Positions 54,330-60,896 of a DNA stretch of 64,000 nucleotides are shown here, one piece after another (position 1 is the stretch's first letter; each line of letters begins with the position of its first letter). The DNA lies in contig NZ_JARDUB010000008.1 of the NCBI RefSeq assembly GCF_029360665.1, forward strand, positions 1-64,000. The letters are read 5' to 3'. The notes under the pieces were generated by a model. That model was not told where the DNA came from and did not search any database. It saw only the letters and a list, made by a program, of their open reading frames with translations. The stretch is from Eudoraea chungangensis (GTDB taxonomy: Bacteria; Bacteroidota; Bacteroidia; Flavobacteriales; Flavobacteriaceae). A program made the translations under genes and the position numbers.

Positions 54330-55094
54330 TTACCTGATCTTCTTTATAAAATCTGCAATTCCTATAACACCATCGTTGTTTAACATTTTAATAAATGCAG
54401 AACCTATAATGGCTCCTTTGGCATATGTTGTTGCTTGTTTAAACGTCTCCGCATTACTTATTCCAAATCCTACTATTTGTGGATTATTCAAATTCATTTC
54501 TTGAATACGATGGAAGTATTTCGCCTGCTTATCTCCGAACCCATCCTGTGCCCCTGTGGTGCTGGCAGAACTTACCATGTATATAAATCCCTTCGAAGCA
54601 GCGTCTATTTCGTTGATTCGTTTCACACTAGTTTGTGGTGTAATAAGAAACATATTTAGAAGGTTGTATTTCTTAAAGATAGATTCATATTCGTTCTTAT
54701 AAACATCTAAAGGAAGGTCGGGCAGAATTAAACCATCAATTCCAATATCTGCACAGTTTTTGCAGAATGCTTCAACACCATATTGCAAAACGGGGTTAAA
54801 ATATCCCATAATGATAAGGGGTATTGAAATGGTATTTCGAACGGTTTTTAGTTGCTCGAATAAAACTTCTGTATTCATACCATTTCTTAAAGCCTTTGTA
54901 GAACTCTGTTGGATAGTAGGTCCGTCTGCCAAAGGATCGCTAAATGGCAGTCCAATTTCTATCATATCAACTCCTGCTTTTTCTAAAGCTTCCATAATAG
55001 GCACGGTATCGTTTAATTGTGGATAACCCGCTGTGAAATAAATAGAAAGAAGATCTTGTTTTTCTTGTAGTTTAAGCTGTATTCTATTATTCAT
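54330..55094 (-). CDS. trpA: Tryptophan synthase alpha chain
   Basis: 254 residues. It cleaves indole-3-glycerol phosphate. YFTAGYP, the catalytic Glu/Asp region MIEIGLPFSDPLADGPTIQ and SSASTTGAQ are present. It is the last biosynthetic gene of the operon, 5 bp after trpB. Confidence 0.96.
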   Translation of the reverse strand: MNNRIQLKLQEKQDLLSIYFTAGYPQLNDTVPIMEALEKAGVDMIEIGLPFSDPLADGPTIQQSSTKALRNGMNTEVLFEQLKTVRNTISIPLIIMGYFNPVLQYGVEAFCKNCADIGIDGLILPDLPLDVYKNEYESIFKKYNLLNMFLITPQTSVKRINEIDAASKGFIYMVSSASTTGAQDGFGDKQAKYFHRIQEMNLNNPQIVGFGISNAETFKQATTYAKGAIIGSAFIKMLNNDGVIGIADFIKKIR

Positions 55095-55099
55095 TCTAT

Positions 55100-56281
55100 T
55101 TATAATTTAAAATAATCAATATAGGTTTGCAGGTCTTTATCTCCTCTTCCAGAGAGATTTACCACAACGACGTCTTCCGGTTGAAATTTTTTGTGCTCAA
55201 AAACTGCAAATGCATGAGAAGTCTCAATGGCAGGGATAATTCCTTCCAACTGGGAGACCAGAAGTCCGGCCCGCATAGCTTCTTCATCGTCAATAGAAAT
55301 AAATTCTCCTCTGCCGGAGGTATAGAGATGTGCATGCATAGGTCCTACACCGGGATAATCCAGTCCGGCCGAAATAGAATAGGGTTCTGTTATTTGACCG
55401 TCTTTTGTTTGCATCAATAGTGTCTTACTGCCATGAATGATACCAATTTTTCCCAGAGCCGAAGTTGCTGCGCTTTCTCCTGAATGAATTCCTTTACCTG
55501 CGGCTTCAACAGCAATAATCCCAACTTCTTCATTGTCTAAAAAATGGTAATATGCCCCGGCTGCGTTACTACCCCCGCCAACACAAGCTACAACATAATC
55601 GGGATCGGTTCTTCCTTCTTTCTCTTGTAATTGTATTTTAATTTCCTCAGAAATAATAGATTGAAACCTAGCTACCATATCTGGATAGGGATGAGGTCCA
55701 ACTACCGAACCAATTATATAGTGTGTGTCCTCTGGATTATTGATCCAGTCCCGTATGGCCTCATTGGTTGCGTCTTTAAGTGTTTTACTGCCAGATTTTG
55801 CCGCCCGTACTTCTGCCCCTAACATTTTCATTCTTGCTACATTTGGTGCTTGCCTTTTGATATCAATTTCCCCCATATAGACGACACATTTAATACCCAT
55901 AAGCGCACAAACTGTGGCTGTTGCCACACCGTGCTGGCCAGCTCCAGTCTCAGCGATGATTCGATTTTTTCCTAGTCTTTGCGCCATTAAAATTTGGCCT
56001 ATTGTATTATTTACTTTATGAGCTCCTGTATGGCACAAATCTTCTCTTTTGAGATAAATTCTGGCATTGTAATTTTCAGAAAGTCGTTTGGCATAATATA
56101 GAGGAGTAGGTCTGCCAACATAATCTTTTAATAAAGCCTCAAAATCCTTCCTAAAGGATGGCTCATTCATGATTTTAATGTAATTCTCTCTTAATTCTTC
56201 GGTATTAGGATAGAGCATTTCGGGAATATAGGCTCCTCCAAACTCTCCGTAATATCCTTTATTATCTGCATTATAACTCAT
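55100..56281 (-). CDS. trpB: Tryptophan synthase beta chain
   Basis: 393 residues. The PLP lysine is in [23 protein letters not shown] and the [11 protein letters not shown] motif are present. It condenses indole with serine. It is 3 bp after trpF and 5 bp before trpA. Confidence 0.97.
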
Positions 56282-56284
56282 AGC

Positions 56285-56929
56285 TTAATTTTTATGTATT
56301 GCGGATATTTTATTTATAAAACTTTCTATTTCTGCTATCTTTTTTACTCCTGGTTGTTTTTCAAATTTACTGTTTATGTCTAAGGCATAACAGTATTTTG
56401 CCATGGGAGATTTTAAAAAGCCATCTATTTTTTCCAAGTCATTCGGACCAATCCCTCCACTAAGGAAAAAGGGTTTTTTAGAGGGGTAATTTTGCAGTAA
56501 TGACCAGTTAAATTGTGAACCATTTCCACCGGGTAATTTCCCTTTGGTATCAAAGAGAAAGAAATCACAAACCCTTTCAAAGGGAAGCAATTTGTCAAAA
56601 TTAAAACTGTCTTTCAGTTGGAAGACTTTTATGATATTAATTTCCAACTTTCTCTCAAGGATTTCCTCTTTTAGGCTTTTGCAAAATTGAGGGGATTCTT
56701 TCCCGTGAAGTTGTATGGCTTGTAAATCATAGAGACTAATTTTTGAAAGAATCTCGCCAATGGACGCATCTACGAAAACACCAACTTTTTCAATGTTCTG
56801 ATTTAAATCCGGTAATGGGAGATTAAAAAATCTTGATGATGGTTCCCAGAAGATAAAGCCCAAGTAATCAGGCAATAGACCAGCTACTTCCAGAACATTT
56901 TCTCCCATTCCGCAAACTTTTAATTTCAT
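56285..56929 (-). CDS. trpF: Phosphoribosylanthranilate isomerase
   Basis: 214 residues, TIM barrel. The catalytic Cys lies in MKLKVCGM and the phosphate loop in FLSGGIGPNDL. ALDINSKFEKQPGVK is the family C-terminal motif. It overlaps trpC by 4 bp. Confidence 0.95.
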   Translation of the reverse strand: MKLKVCGMGENVLEVAGLLPDYLGFIFWEPSSRFFNLPLPDLNQNIEKVGVFVDASIGEILSKISLYDLQAIQLHGKESPQFCKSLKEEILERKLEINIIKVFQLKDSFNFDKLLPFERVCDFFLFDTKGKLPGGNGSQFNWSLLQNYPSKKPFFLSGGIGPNDLEKIDGFLKSPMAKYCYALDINSKFEKQPGVKKIAEIESFINKISAIHKN

Positions 56930-57711
56930 TTGTTTAGTTCCTTAATAAATTGATAGGCATTTTCTCCAGGATTTTTGGTGCGCATAAAATTTTCACCAAT
57001 TAAAAAACCTTTAAATCCTGCTGCTTTAAGTCCATTAATTGCGTCTATGGAACTAATACCACTTTCGGAGACTTTAATATACTCTTCAGGAATATGTCTG
57101 GCCAACTCATAACTGGTTTTTAGATCTACTCGAAAGGTTTTTAAATTCCTATTGTTAACACCTATCATGTCTATTTCCGGAAGAATAGACTTCTGTAATT
57201 CTTCTTGGTTGTGCACCTCTAAGAGAACATCCATTTCTAAACTCTTTGCCGTTTTAGAAAGTTGTTCTAGTTCTTTTTTATCCAGAATAGCCGCGATTAG
57301 CAAAATAGTGTCTGCTCCAAAAGACTTCGCTTCAATTAATTGGTATTCATCAATAATAAATTCCTTTCTTAAAAGAGAGGTGTTTACAGAGGCCCTAGCT
57401 AGGACTAAGTCGTCCAAGGAGCCACCAAAGTACTGCCCATCAGTTAAGATAGAAATTCCGGATACTCCGGCTTTTTCATAGGCCTTAACTACTTCAGAAA
57501 CACTTAAACTCTGATTGATAACCGACTTTGACGGCGATCTTCTCTTGTGTTCTGCTATAATCCCGGAGGTACTTTTATTTAGTTCCTGGGACATTGATAT
57601 TGTCTTCCGTTCAAAAAGTCTGGAAGCCTCCAAGGTTTTAATTGGGACTACTTCTTTTTTAAGAGCTACTTCAACTTTTTTACTCTTTACTATTTTATCC
57701 AGTATATCCAT
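56926..57711 (-). CDS. trpC: Indole-3-glycerol phosphate synthase
   Basis: 261 residues. The motif IIAEHKRRSPSKSVI carries the catalytic lysine, and IGVNNRNLKTF and VSESGI follow. It overlaps trpF by 4 bp and shares one base with trpD. Confidence 0.96.
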   Translation of the reverse strand: MDILDKIVKSKKVEVALKKEVVPIKTLEASRLFERKTISMSQELNKSTSGIIAEHKRRSPSKSVINQSLSVSEVVKAYEKAGVSGISILTDGQYFGGSLDDLVLARASVNTSLLRKEFIIDEYQLIEAKSFGADTILLIAAILDKKELEQLSKTAKSLEMDVLLEVHNQEELQKSILPEIDMIGVNNRNLKTFRVDLKTSYELARHIPEEYIKVSESGISSIDAINGLKAAGFKGFLIGENFMRTKNPGENAYQFIKELNK

Positions 57712-58703
57712 TATAAACTTAGTTCTTGTAATTTTTTTAAGGCTTGTAGGGCTTTCTTGCTTTCTAGCGATTCTTTAGCCTTTTCAAATCCTTCTAAAGG
57801 ACTTATTTCTTCGGCAGTGGCAATCGCCATTCCCGCATTGGCACAGACAACATTATTCTGAGCCTCCGTACCTTTTCCTTGTAGAATATTCAGAAAAATT
57901 TGAGCGGATGTGTCCACACTGTTTCCTCCTTCTATATCTCTAGAACTTACTTTTTTTACTCCAAAATCAATAGGCTCTAGCATACTCTCTGTAGCATTGG
58001 AAATTGTTTTGGTGCTACCTGTTAAGGAGATCTCATCGTATCCATCCAAGGCGTGAAGTATGGTGAACTTTTTATCTGTATTCTGATAGAGGTAGCCGTA
58101 TATCCTAGCCAGCTCTAAGTTAAAAACACCTACTATTTGATTTTTTGGAAAGGCCGGATTAACCATTGGTCCCAGCATATTAAAAAAGGTTTTCACTCCT
58201 AATTCCCTTCTAATCGGGGCAACATTTTTCATAGCCGGATGAAATAAAGGAGCGTGTAAAACACAGATCCCAGCCTCTTCTATAGATTTTTTGAGAAAGT
58301 CTTGGTCTTTGCTAAACTTTATGCCCAAAAACTCCATAACATTACTGCTTCCACAGGCAGAAGAAACTCCATAATTTCCATGTTTGGTAACTTTTATTCC
58401 GGCACCTGCCGTTACAAAGGAGGCCAGCGTGGAAATGTTAAAAGTATCTTTTCCATCTCCGCCAGTTCCGCAAAGGTCAATAGGATTAAATTCGGATAAG
58501 TCTACAGACAGACATAATTCTAGAAGTGCATCCCTAAATCCTTCTAATTCTTCAATTGTGATACTTCGCATCATATAAACCGTCAGGAAAGCAGCTATTT
58601 GGCTGTTGTTATAATTTCCTTTCGCAATGTTCACCAATACCTGTTTGGCATCTTCTTTGGAGAGAAGATCGTGGTTTATTAATTTGTTTAATACGGTTTT
58701 CAT
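57711..58703 (-). CDS. trpD: Anthranilate phosphoribosyltransferase
   Basis: 330 residues. Motifs are DLCGTGGDGKDTFNIST, KHGNYGVSSACGSSNVME and RRELGVKTFFNMLGPMVNP. It joins anthranilate and PRPP. It is not fused to trpG. Confidence 0.96.
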   Translation of the reverse strand: MKTVLNKLINHDLLSKEDAKQVLVNIAKGNYNNSQIAAFLTVYMMRSITIEELEGFRDALLELCLSVDLSEFNPIDLCGTGGDGKDTFNISTLASFVTAGAGIKVTKHGNYGVSSACGSSNVMEFLGIKFSKDQDFLKKSIEEAGICVLHAPLFHPAMKNVAPIRRELGVKTFFNMLGPMVNPAFPKNQIVGVFNLELARIYGYLYQNTDKKFTILHALDGYDEISLTGSTKTISNATESMLEPIDFGVKKVSSRDIEGGNSVDTSAQIFLNILQGKGTEAQNNVVCANAGMAIATAEEISPLEGFEKAKESLESKKALQALKKLQELSL

Positions 58704-58733: not shown

Positions 58734-59297
58734 TTAAGAGTCTAACCAGTTTTTTAGTAGTTGTTTTCCCAGAGGGGTTAAAACCGATTCTGGATGAAAT
58801 TGAACCGCTGTAATATTATGGGTACGATGTCTTAGGGACATTAGTTGACCATTTTCATCAAAGGCAGTAGCAATAAGTTCCTTGGGAAGCTTGGGGTCAA
58901 CAACCCAGGAATGGTATCTTCCTACGGTTATTTCATTGGGCATTCCTTTATAAATAGGATCATCCGCGGCGATACTGATTTGAGTTGCAACCCCATGATA
59001 AACTTTATCCAGATTAATTAATTTTCCACCAAACACTTCGCCGATCGCCTGTTGCCCAAGACAAACACCAAATATTTTTTTTGTTTTGGCGTACTTTTTA
59101 ATAATTGTTTTAAGCAAGCCAGCCTCCTCGGGAATACCGGGCCCAGGGGACAATACTAAATTGTCAAAATCTTCTACCTCCTCCAGCCTTAATTGATCAT
59201 TTCTCTTAACTTCTACTTCACAGCCTAAGTCTTCCAGGTAGTGAACCAGGTTATAGGTGAAACTATCGTAATTATCTATTACCAGTACTCTTTTCAT
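58734..59297 (-). CDS. trpG: Anthranilate synthase component II (glutamine amidotransferase)
   Basis: 187 residues, class I glutamine amidotransferase. LSPGPGIPEEAG, the nucleophile in GVCLGQQAI and the His-Glu pair in VQFHPESVLTP are present. It supplies ammonia to TrpE. Confidence 0.96.
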   Translation of the reverse strand: MKRVLVIDNYDSFTYNLVHYLEDLGCEVEVKRNDQLRLEEVEDFDNLVLSPGPGIPEEAGLLKTIIKKYAKTKKIFGVCLGQQAIGEVFGGKLINLDKVYHGVATQISIAADDPIYKGMPNEITVGRYHSWVVDPKLPKELIATAFDENGQLMSLRHRTHNITAVQFHPESVLTPLGKQLLKNWLDS

Positions 59298-59306
59298 TGT
59301 TTTTAT

Positions 59307-60704
59307 TTAAATAGTTTCAGCTAATTCCAAGGCCTTATTAAGGGCACCAAGTTTATTATAAGTTTCTTCTAATTCTTTGTCGGGATCAGAAGCGGCAACC
59401 AAACCGGCTCCAGCCTGGAAATAGAGTAAATGATCTTTACTTAGAAAGGTTCTAATCATTATGGCATGATTAAAGTTTCCTTCAAAATCCATAAAACCTA
59501 TCGCTCCTCCATAATAGGCCCTGTTGGTGACTTCATATTTGTCAATTAGTTGCATTGCCATATGTTTAGGAGCTCCACTCAGCGTTCCTGCGGGAAACGT
59601 ATCTGCCACGACATTCATTGTTGGTATTTCACCCTTTTTCTGACCGGTTACCTTCGAAACCAAATGAATTACATGTGAAAAATATTGAACCTCTCGATAG
59701 TTCTCTACATTAACTAGGTTGCCGTTTCTGCTCAGATCATTCCTGGCTAGGTCTACCAGCATTACGTGTTCGCTATTTTCTTTATCGTCTTCTGTAAGTT
59801 GTTTTGCTAATAGGGCATCTTCTTCATCATTTCCGGTTCTTTTAAAGGTACCGGCAATAGGATGGATTTCTGCTCGATTGTCTTTTACGATTAATTGTGC
59901 TTCGGGCGAACTTCCAAAAATTTTAAATCCACCGTAGTCAAAGTAGAATAGATATGGAGAGGGGTTTATGGATCTCAGCGCTCTATAGACATTAAATTCA
60001 TCTCCTTTAAATCCTTGTTCAAATCTTCTGGACAATACAAGTTGAAAAACATCTCCTCGTTTGCAGTGTTTCTTGGCAAAACGTACATGTTCTTTATACT
60101 CCTCATCTCTAAGATTGGAGCTTAGCTCGCCGTCTCTCTCAAAAGAATAGGTGGCAAAATTTCTAATATTTAATAATTGTTCTATTTCACTGATGTTGTT
60201 TTCGGTATTATAGCAATGCGCAAAAATGTAGGCTTCATTTTTAAAATGATTAATGGCAATGATATTTTGATATACTGCATAATATATATCAGGGATGGCT
60301 ATTTTCTCTTTTTTTGGGGTAATTTCAATATCTTCAAAATAACGGACTGCATCATAGGAAAGATAGCCAAACAAACCATTATTGATGAATTTAAACTCAT
60401 TTGCCGTTGATTTGAACAGCAAACTGAAGTCATGAAGTTCCTTTACCACAGTGGTTTTATCCTTTATGTCAGATTCCGAAGAGGTATGGTCAGGAAAGGT
60501 TTTTGAGATTTGTTCATTTTCTACCTTAATTGAAGCAATAGGATTACAGCAGATATATGAAAAAGTGTTATCGTTTGCTCTATAATCACTACTTTCTAGT
60601 AAAATACTGTTTGGAAATCTATCTCTAATTTTTAAATAGACACTTACAGGCGTAATAGTATCGGCAAGTATTTTTTTATAATGCGTTTTTAATTTATAGG
60701 CCAT
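59307..60704 (-). CDS. trpE: Anthranilate synthase component I
   Basis: 465 residues with the chorismate-binding C-terminal domain: FGSSPEAQLIV, IHPIAGTFKRTGNDEEDALL, LVDLARNDLSRNG and AGTLSGAPKHMAM. An N-terminal regulatory part includes LLESSD, the usual tryptophan feedback segment. It is the first structural gene, 39 bp downstream of the attenuator hairpin. Confidence 0.97.
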   Translation of the reverse strand: MAYKLKTHYKKILADTITPVSVYLKIRDRFPNSILLESSDYRANDNTFSYICCNPIASIKVENEQISKTFPDHTSSESDIKDKTTVVKELHDFSLLFKSTANEFKFINNGLFGYLSYDAVRYFEDIEITPKKEKIAIPDIYYAVYQNIIAINHFKNEAYIFAHCYNTENNISEIEQLLNIRNFATYSFERDGELSSNLRDEEYKEHVRFAKKHCKRGDVFQLVLSRRFEQGFKGDEFNVYRALRSINPSPYLFYFDYGGFKIFGSSPEAQLIVKDNRAEIHPIAGTFKRTGNDEEDALLAKQLTEDDKENSEHVMLVDLARNDLSRNGNLVNVENYREVQYFSHVIHLVSKVTGQKKGEIPTMNVVADTFPAGTLSGAPKHMAMQLIDKYEVTNRAYYGGAIGFMDFEGNFNHAIMIRTFLSKDHLLYFQAGAGLVAASDPDKELEETYNKLGALNKALELAETI

Positions 60705-60743: not shown

Positions 60744-60775
60744 AAAAAGGCTTGTCGTGATAGACAAGCCTTTTT
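60744..60775 (-). terminator. trp attenuator terminator
   Basis: On the minus strand AAAAAGGCTTGTC and GACAAGCCTTTTT form a 13-bp perfect stem around a TATCAC loop, followed by a second T-run. It sits between the leader peptide and trpE. Confidence 0.92.
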
Positions 60776-60810
60776 AAATAGTATAACTACAATGGTGCTT
60801 AGATCACGAC
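60754..60810 (-). promoter_or_regulatory. Antiterminator pairing of the trp leader
   Basis: The leader sequence GTCGTGAT (60803-60810, spanning the leader stop codon) is perfectly complementary to ATCACGAC (60754-60761). The latter covers the terminator loop and the start of its 3' arm. An adjacent AAGC (60797-60800) can pair with GCTT in the terminator 5' arm (60766-60769). A separate CACCA (60793-60797) can pair with the Trp codons. The two main structures are mutually exclusive. Confidence 0.8.
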
Positions 60811-60860
60811 GTTTGACGTAATAAGTTCCACCACCAAGTATTTACTATTGTTTTTTTCAT
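60804..60860 (-). CDS. trpL: trp operon leader peptide with three consecutive Trp codons
   Basis: The 18-residue peptide is MKKTIVNTWWWNLLRQTS, with ATG at 60860 and TGA at 60804-60806. Three TGG codons in a row (60828-60836) sit in the middle. Such a run is very unlikely by chance ahead of trpE and is the hallmark of ribosome-mediated attenuation. The stop codon lies within the antiterminator arm, so a ribosome finishing the peptide would block antitermination. One stalled at the Trp codons, ending at least 17 nt away, would leave it free. The ATG follows the -7 box by 5 nt. Confidence 0.93.
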   Translation of the reverse strand: MKKTIVNTWWWNLLRQTS

Positions 60861-60865
60861 TGAGT

Positions 60866-60896
60866 CAAATATATAAAGGAATTTGATAATTGCAAA
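60866..60896 (-). promoter_or_regulatory. trp operon promoter
   Basis: On the minus strand a -33 TTTG (60893-60896) and a -7 TATATTTG (60866-60873) are exactly 19 nt apart, a perfect Bacteroidota promoter. The leader ATG begins 5 nt after the -7 box, so transcription probably starts at or next to it. Confidence 0.85.

Follow-up and report, generated by a model that had tools for sequence, protein, structure and literature searches.

In the trpL leader of Escherichia coli, the antiterminator is built with the 5′ arm of the terminator, and the leader start is led by a Shine-Dalgarno sequence. A trp element described for the Bacteroidota is Bacteroid-trp (RF01692), which entered the literature in 2010 as a cis-regulatory RNA predicted for Bacteroidetes (Weinberg et al., PMC2864571) and was named as conserved 5′ of the trp operon of Flavobacterium psychrophilum (PMC6414381), an organism in which leader-peptide attenuation before amino acid operons has been suggested (PMC9723704). 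The accessible parts of PMC2864571 and PMC6414381 describe neither an antiterminator nor a start for Bacteroid-trp, and no worked-out mechanism for the family was found in the literature searched. A leaderless leader ORF is known from trpL of Sinorhizobium meliloti (PMC7298713), and leaderless polycysteine short ORFs serve as attenuators in mycobacteria (Canestrari 2020, cited within PMC13236596), and the principle of a leaderless leader is therefore not new. For the Bacteroidota, no report of a leaderless leader ORF was found in those parts of the literature that the search could access.

The window analyzed here is a stretch of 64,000 nucleotides from Eudoraea chungangensis. An Rfam scan of the window gave a single match above cut-off, to RF01692 at positions 60880 to 60763, with a score of 75.1 bits against a gathering cut-off of 49, an E value of 1.3e-7 and coverage of the full model (1 to 131), and the matched site lies before trp genes and carries a leader with three consecutive Trp codons (WWW). 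An earlier note on this DNA had known of no characterized trp attenuator of such design in Bacteroidota, a claim that did not hold as the element is RF01692 and has been on record since 2010 (PMC2864571, PMC6414381). The reading of the locus as an undescribed element was dropped because of the same match. Matches to RF01692 came from at least 47 of 296 genomes in the order and at least 30 of 296 in the phylum, counts that are lower bounds because filters lose weak matches. The element resembles Bacteroid-trp in its position before trpE, its leader and its protector hairpin, and it differs in that the model as aligned stops at the terminator 5′ arm, GGCUUGUC, such that the model contains neither the terminator pairing nor an antiterminator between the stop region and the terminator loop. 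We conclude that the class of element is ordinary and already catalogued and that its wiring is unusual.

Sequence inspection of the window placed the whole attenuator on the minus strand, 5′ of trpE, and a TTTG-N19-TATATTTG promoter, an ATG 5 nucleotides later, an 18-codon leader ORF with three consecutive Trp codons, a 13-bp intrinsic terminator and an 8-bp pairing of the stop-codon region with the terminator loop and 3′ arm were all found where the earlier note had put them. The -33 element TTTG (60893 to 60896) is separated by 19 nucleotides from the -7 element TATATTTG (60866 to 60873), for which the consensus TAnnTTTG and the position -12 to -5 were taken from PMC9723704 and PMC6847099. 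The -7 box is followed by ACTCA and then by the ATG (60860 to 60858) of the leader peptide ORF MKKTIVNTWWWNLLRQTS (60804 to 60860), which has 18 sense codons and a TGA stop and in which codons 9 to 11 are the Trp codons (60836 to 60828). The antiterminator 5′ arm GTCGTGAT (60803 to 60810) begins 26 nucleotides after the first Trp codon, contains the TGA stop and is the perfect 8-bp complement of the antiterminator 3′ arm ATCACGAC (60754 to 60761). The latter consists of the last 5 nucleotides of the loop and the first 3 nucleotides of the 3′ arm of the terminator (60744 to 60775), which is composed of 5′ arm AAAAAGGCTTGTC (60775 to 60763), loop TATCAC (60762 to 60757) and 3′ arm GACAAGCCTTTTT (60756 to 60744). 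Two hallmarks of a ribosome-mediated trp attenuator, a short conserved ORF with consecutive Trp codons and an intrinsic terminator placed ahead of the structural genes, are present in the window.

The genes behind the attenuator, all on the minus strand, are in the order trpEGDCFBA. They are trpE, the first gene of the operon (59307 to 60704; TIGR00564, E value of 1.1e-131, below its cut-off), trpG (58734 to 59297; TIGR00566), trpD (57711 to 58703; TIGR01245), trpC (56926 to 57711; NF001377), trpF (56285 to 56929; matches below cut-offs), trpB (55100 to 56281; TIGR00263) and trpA (54330 to 55094; TIGR00262), with the matches of trpG, trpD, trpC, trpB and trpA above cut-off. The names of trpE and trpF rest partly on operon order because their scores fall below curated cut-offs. 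The gene upstream of the attenuator on the same strand (62527 to 60962) is an arylsulfotransferase (PF05935 and PF17425).

For comparison, trpE was located in 277 of 299 genomes of the Flavobacteriaceae, and 110 loci, the window's own included, were combined with 100 further trpE regions to give, after removal of 10 duplicates, 200 distinct regions, which are related sequences and not independent samples. An ORF of 6 to 45 codons that starts with ATG and has two or more TGG codons in succession was found 5′ of trpE in 187 of the 200, the window's own among them, and such an ORF turned up once in 200 reverse strands and never in 200 shuffled sequences. At least three consecutive Trp codons were present in the ATG-started leaders of 184 regions. 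The 13 regions that lacked an ATG-started leader comprised six with GTG or TTG starts, two contigs that were cut off and five in which additional sequence separates leader from trpE; four of these five carried an ORF of 71 to 101 amino acids, and one (L111) had similar sequence with no such ORF. When other start codons were allowed, leader and terminator were found together in 196 of the 200 regions, and the four misses were L013 (element present, overlooked by the terminator scan), L041 and L093 (leader further upstream) and L105 (truncated locus). Among the 196, the Trp run was three codons long in 193 and two codons long, which was the search criterion, in 3. The run started 8 codons after the start codon in 179 of 192. 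An alignment of the region 5′ of trpE in flavobacterial relatives had been proposed by the earlier note as a check, and it returned both the Trp run and the paired arms as conserved.

Two further arrangements were observed among the loci collected. In six of them (L041, L046, L061, L062, L093 and L173), a small ORF of 71 to 101 amino acids, which looks GIY-YIG-like, sits between attenuator and trpE and would therefore be under trp control. One locus of another family (L254) has two WWW leaders in tandem, with Trp runs at 122 and 258 and a terminator for each, and is possibly a double trp attenuator.

The core of the antiterminator arm, CGTGA, was found at a nearly fixed distance from the first Trp codon, at 28 nucleotides in 151 regions and 29 nucleotides in 36 (187 of 196 in total). 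CGTGA provided the leader stop in 141 of 190 regions and did not in 49, in 37 of which, including several Aquimarina, it lay in another frame. Because distance and letters are constant across frames, CGTGA is kept as RNA and not as peptide, and because 49 regions end the leader at a codon other than this TGA, the stop codon is not essential to the arm. The earlier note had the antiterminator arm include the leader stop codon itself, which is correct for the window and fails as a requirement. The longest pairing between the stop region and the loop and 3′ arm, with G-U pairs allowed, was 5 to 8 bp with a mode of 7 in the 196 regions, compared with a mean of 4.0 when the stop region was shuffled. 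Moreover, all 196 Flavobacteriaceae regions had the loop and 3′ arm as the best partner of the stop region, with ties counted as loop, and the classical layout was found in none.

Covariation was assessed in a 115-member alignment, the selection of which favored unusual members. The terminator stem showed changes on both sides among relatives in 6 of 12 counted pairs. The antiterminator pairing was formed in 85.2% of cells, compared with 16.8% and 42.8% when the register was slid by +1 and +3; the inner six pairs were formed in at least 112 of 115 members, and the outer two were formed in less than half (failing in 63 of 115 and 66 of 112). Seven antiterminator cells had changed on both sides, compared with 1.2 in shuffles, and 0 of 500 shuffles reached as high. 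Only two antiterminator pairs had changed on both sides, a number that 65 of 500 shuffles reached, and 187 of 500 equaled the pair types. The covariation score was 0.030 in the true register, 0.054 when slid by +1 and 0.052 when slid by +3, and RNAalifold on alignment A1 predicted the terminator alone. Two members had exchanged the letters of both arms: L242 has the arm pair GTCGTAAG:CTTACGAC with a TAA stop, and L106 has GTTGTGAC:GTCACGAC. Covariation within the Flavobacteriaceae is thin, and the evidence for the antiterminator there is mostly conservation with a few telling exceptions.

Other families had other letters in the arms. In a family of the same class, f25, GTCGTAAG:CTTACGAC and similar pairs were found, and the best partner was the loop and 3′ arm in 25 of 26 elements and the 5′ arm in 1. 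In a family of the same order, f5, the arm pairs included GTTGGTTC:GAACCGAC, GTTGATTC:GAATCGAC and ATTGTGAGT:ACTCACGAT; the loop and 3′ arm, with ties counted as loop, were the best partner in 20 of 30 elements and the 5′ arm (AAAGTC:GACTTT) in 10. Own partners outscored partners borrowed from other families in 6 of 6 comparisons. Own partners also scored above partners from the same family, by small amounts in f1 (16.88 versus 16.6) and f25 (17.0 versus 16.75) and by a larger one in f5 (14.33 versus 11.67). Four elements of one Flavobacteriaceae genus (g131), outside the 196, were assigned by the automatic score to the 5′ arm (one), a tie (one) and the loop in another register (two), and by eye GTGAG is visible close to their stops and CTCA(C/T) in their terminator loops. 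As judged from these sequences, we conclude that outside the Flavobacteriaceae the pairing is kept with other letters, arm and loop changing together.

The earlier note had listed the terminator and the antiterminator, both of which stood, and had missed a third structure, a protector hairpin. RNA of the window that is free of ribosomes was predicted to fold as one long hairpin (60849 to 60777, minus strand) that hides GTCGTGAT, in agreement with the Rfam structure, in which the same region is paired. Within this hairpin, the protector arm TTACG (60817 to 60821, minus strand) has CGTGA as its partner. As RNAalifold had given the terminator alone, the protector was assessed by pairing in each sequence relative to shuffles and by masked folding. 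The longest helix between the Trp-codon region and the stretch after the stop averaged 7.68 compared with 6.33 in shuffles (n = 193), and that between the stretch before CGTGA, most often TTACG, and CGTGA averaged 4.72 compared with 3.84 (n = 190). TTACG is similar to TCACG in the terminator loop, and the arm would therefore choose between two nearly identical partners.

Folding of alternative states was predicted for 181 regions at 25°C, with 31 nucleotides masked for the ribosome and with RNA that ended just after the loop and GAC. A ribosome on the first Trp codon gave the antiterminator a probability above 0.5 in 173 of 181 regions, and one on the third did so in all 181. With the ribosome at the stop, 0 of 181 regions passed that value, and among naked RNAs 49 of 181 did, the latter being an exception to the rule that stalling is needed. 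In the window itself, geometry and masked folding point to a second pairing, incompatible with the terminator and accessible only on stalling. With full-length RNA, the terminator won in every state in at least 175 of 181 regions, and in the stalled states of the window the antiterminator was ahead from nucleotide 103 or 104 to nucleotide 111 to 113, beyond which the terminator was more stable. Because full-length RNA favors the terminator in every state, the switch must be kinetic, as is trp attenuation in E. coli. The stalling logic put forward in the earlier note, in which a ribosome on the Trp codons frees the arm and one at the stop hides it, gains support from the masked folding and from the conserved geometry.

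From the sequence, its conservation, some covariation and the predicted folds, we infer a dependence on tryptophan, translation of the leader and the following order of events. A leader mRNA would start at the AUG or 1 nucleotide before it. In the absence of a ribosome, the Trp-codon region and TTACG would be paired to the stop region and the nucleotides after it, such that the protector hairpin, and then the terminator, would form and transcription would stop. When Trp-tRNA is ample, the ribosome would reach the stop codon and cover GTCGTGAT, and the terminator would form. When Trp-tRNA is scarce, the ribosome would wait on the WWW codons, open the protector hairpin and free GTCGTGAT, which would capture ATCACGAC as the loop emerges and before the 3′ arm of the terminator is complete, and RNA polymerase would read on into trpEGDCFBA. 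We conclude, with a probability of roughly 0.8, that the element is a transcription attenuator that controls the trp operon by way of the ribosome and belongs to Bacteroid-trp, with three alternative structures and a leader mRNA that starts at or 1 nucleotide before the AUG.

One way in which that reading could err is if the same attenuator were transcribed from a start further upstream with an ordinary 5′ untranslated region, the box next to the ATG being incidental or a second promoter. Long leaders are the norm in related organisms, as 87% of predicted leaders in Flavobacterium johnsoniae exceed 10 nucleotides (PMC6847099) and leaderless mRNAs make up just 5.5% in F. psychrophilum (PMC9723704). 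Probable promoters of F. johnsoniae have the -7 box 4 to 5 nucleotides before the transcription start (PMC6847099), which, together with a CA step, would put the start in the window on the A before the ATG (60861, minus strand) or on the ATG itself. TAHHTTTG was present 5′ of the Trp run in 186 of the 196 Flavobacteriaceae regions, with a TTG located 19 or 20 nucleotides before it in 156 of 185, and its distance from the start codon was exactly 5 nucleotides in 63 of 186, 4 to 9 in 111 and, as an upstream start would have it, 14 to 22 in 68. The spacing was likewise 5 nucleotides in 24 of 30 elements of f5, and it was at least 16 nucleotides in all 26 readable elements of the 30 of f25. CA occupied the fourth and fifth bases after the box in 42 of the 63 leaders with 5-nucleotide spacing and in 31 of the 68 with 14- to 22-nucleotide spacing, where a second peak of 20 appeared at the seventh base, and the step was weaker at spacings of 7 to 9 (8 of 36) and of 4 or 6 (2 of 12). 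Moreover, an A at -3, which acts positively in F. johnsoniae and is favored in leadered genes, was nearly absent from short-spaced ATG leaders (6 of 71) compared with long-spaced ones (44 of 66). An upstream start is unlikely given the conserved TTG, the 5-nucleotide spacing in the Flavobacteriaceae and f5 and the -3 context. Promoter spacing, start-site letters and the -3 position agree in predicting a leaderless mRNA and support the near-zero 5′ untranslated region proposed in the earlier note.

The attenuation reading must also be weighed against two accounts of the conserved letters themselves. If TCGTGA were conserved for its pairing with TTACG or for translation termination, its complementarity to the loop would be without function, an account that would fit the above-shuffle pairing of TTACG with CGTGA, the prediction of the terminator alone by RNAalifold and the higher covariation scores of the slid registers. 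It is improbable because loop and arm change together, TTAC loops occurring with TAA stops and GAAC loops with GTTGGTTC, because CGTGA persists in the 49 of 190 regions where it is not the stop and because the loop, otherwise free to vary, is TCAC in nearly all 115 aligned members. Less probable still is that the RNA senses tryptophan itself, uncharged tRNA or a TRAP-like protein with an incidental Trp-rich ORF: apart from the principle that a ligand could bind to the conserved hairpin, nothing was found in favor of such sensing, whereas leaders with consecutive Trp codons occur in 187 of 200 regions compared with 1 and 0 in the controls, the start codon precedes the Trp run by 8 codons in 179 of 192, and no second Rfam family exceeded its cut-off in the window.

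The novelty of a leader-peptide attenuator at this locus reduces to its antiterminator layout and its probable leaderless start, neither of which was found described in the accessible portions of the literature searched, which lay mostly outside subscription journals. Beyond the window, we lean, with some reserve, toward the idea that the Bacteroidota evolved an attenuator architecture of their own, in which the leader stop region captures the terminator loop so that the antiterminator begins a few nucleotides ahead of the terminator, the protector arm TTACG mimics the loop TCACG, the leader is leaderless in two families with the Trp run 8 codons from the 5′ end, and one sub-lineage switched to the classical 5′-arm layout. 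The three-structure model gives a testable scheme to a catalogued RNA family for which no mechanism was found. Moreover, the element offers a natural case of an attenuator that would have neither Shine-Dalgarno initiation nor, probably, a 5′ untranslated region to rely on.

Compared with described leaderless leaders, the element is in a different phylum from the trpLE(G) attenuator of S. meliloti (PMC7298713), and it resembles the mycobacterial polycysteine attenuators, as far as their title tells, in that a leaderless short ORF acts as an amino acid attenuator, the difference being that the amino acid there is cysteine. Within its own genome, the his and pheA leaders are likewise short ORFs, rich in His (HHH) and in Phe/Tyr, before terminators, and they differ in that their stop regions pair best with the terminator 5′ arm, the classical layout (scores for 5′ arm versus loop and 3′ arm of 15 versus 7 for his and 16 versus 12 for pheA). 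The hisG leader (L260, 1200 to 1253) is MKNKSIHHHLYTGTQAR, with a near-consensus -7 box, TAATTTTA, 6 nucleotides before the ATG and a 5′-arm antiterminator, and the pheA leader (L261, 1346 to 1417) has the ORF MTRNYFWNSFYFYFFFKEVRGLF, a strong terminator and a 5′-arm antiterminator. A layout common to all amino acid leaders of the genome was rejected on the basis of these two; the check covered hisG, pheA, one of four aspartokinase matches, preceded by an ORF that is doubtful as a leader, and one of two ilvD matches, in front of which no clear leader was seen. Loop capture and use of the 5′ arm can thus be compared naturally inside a single order and, through the his and pheA leaders, inside a single genome. 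With trpL of E. coli, the window shares a Trp-coding leader, a protector, an antiterminator, a terminator and the logic of stalling, and it differs in that its antiterminator is made with the loop and 3′ arm of the terminator and includes the leader stop, whereas that of E. coli is made with the 5′ arm.
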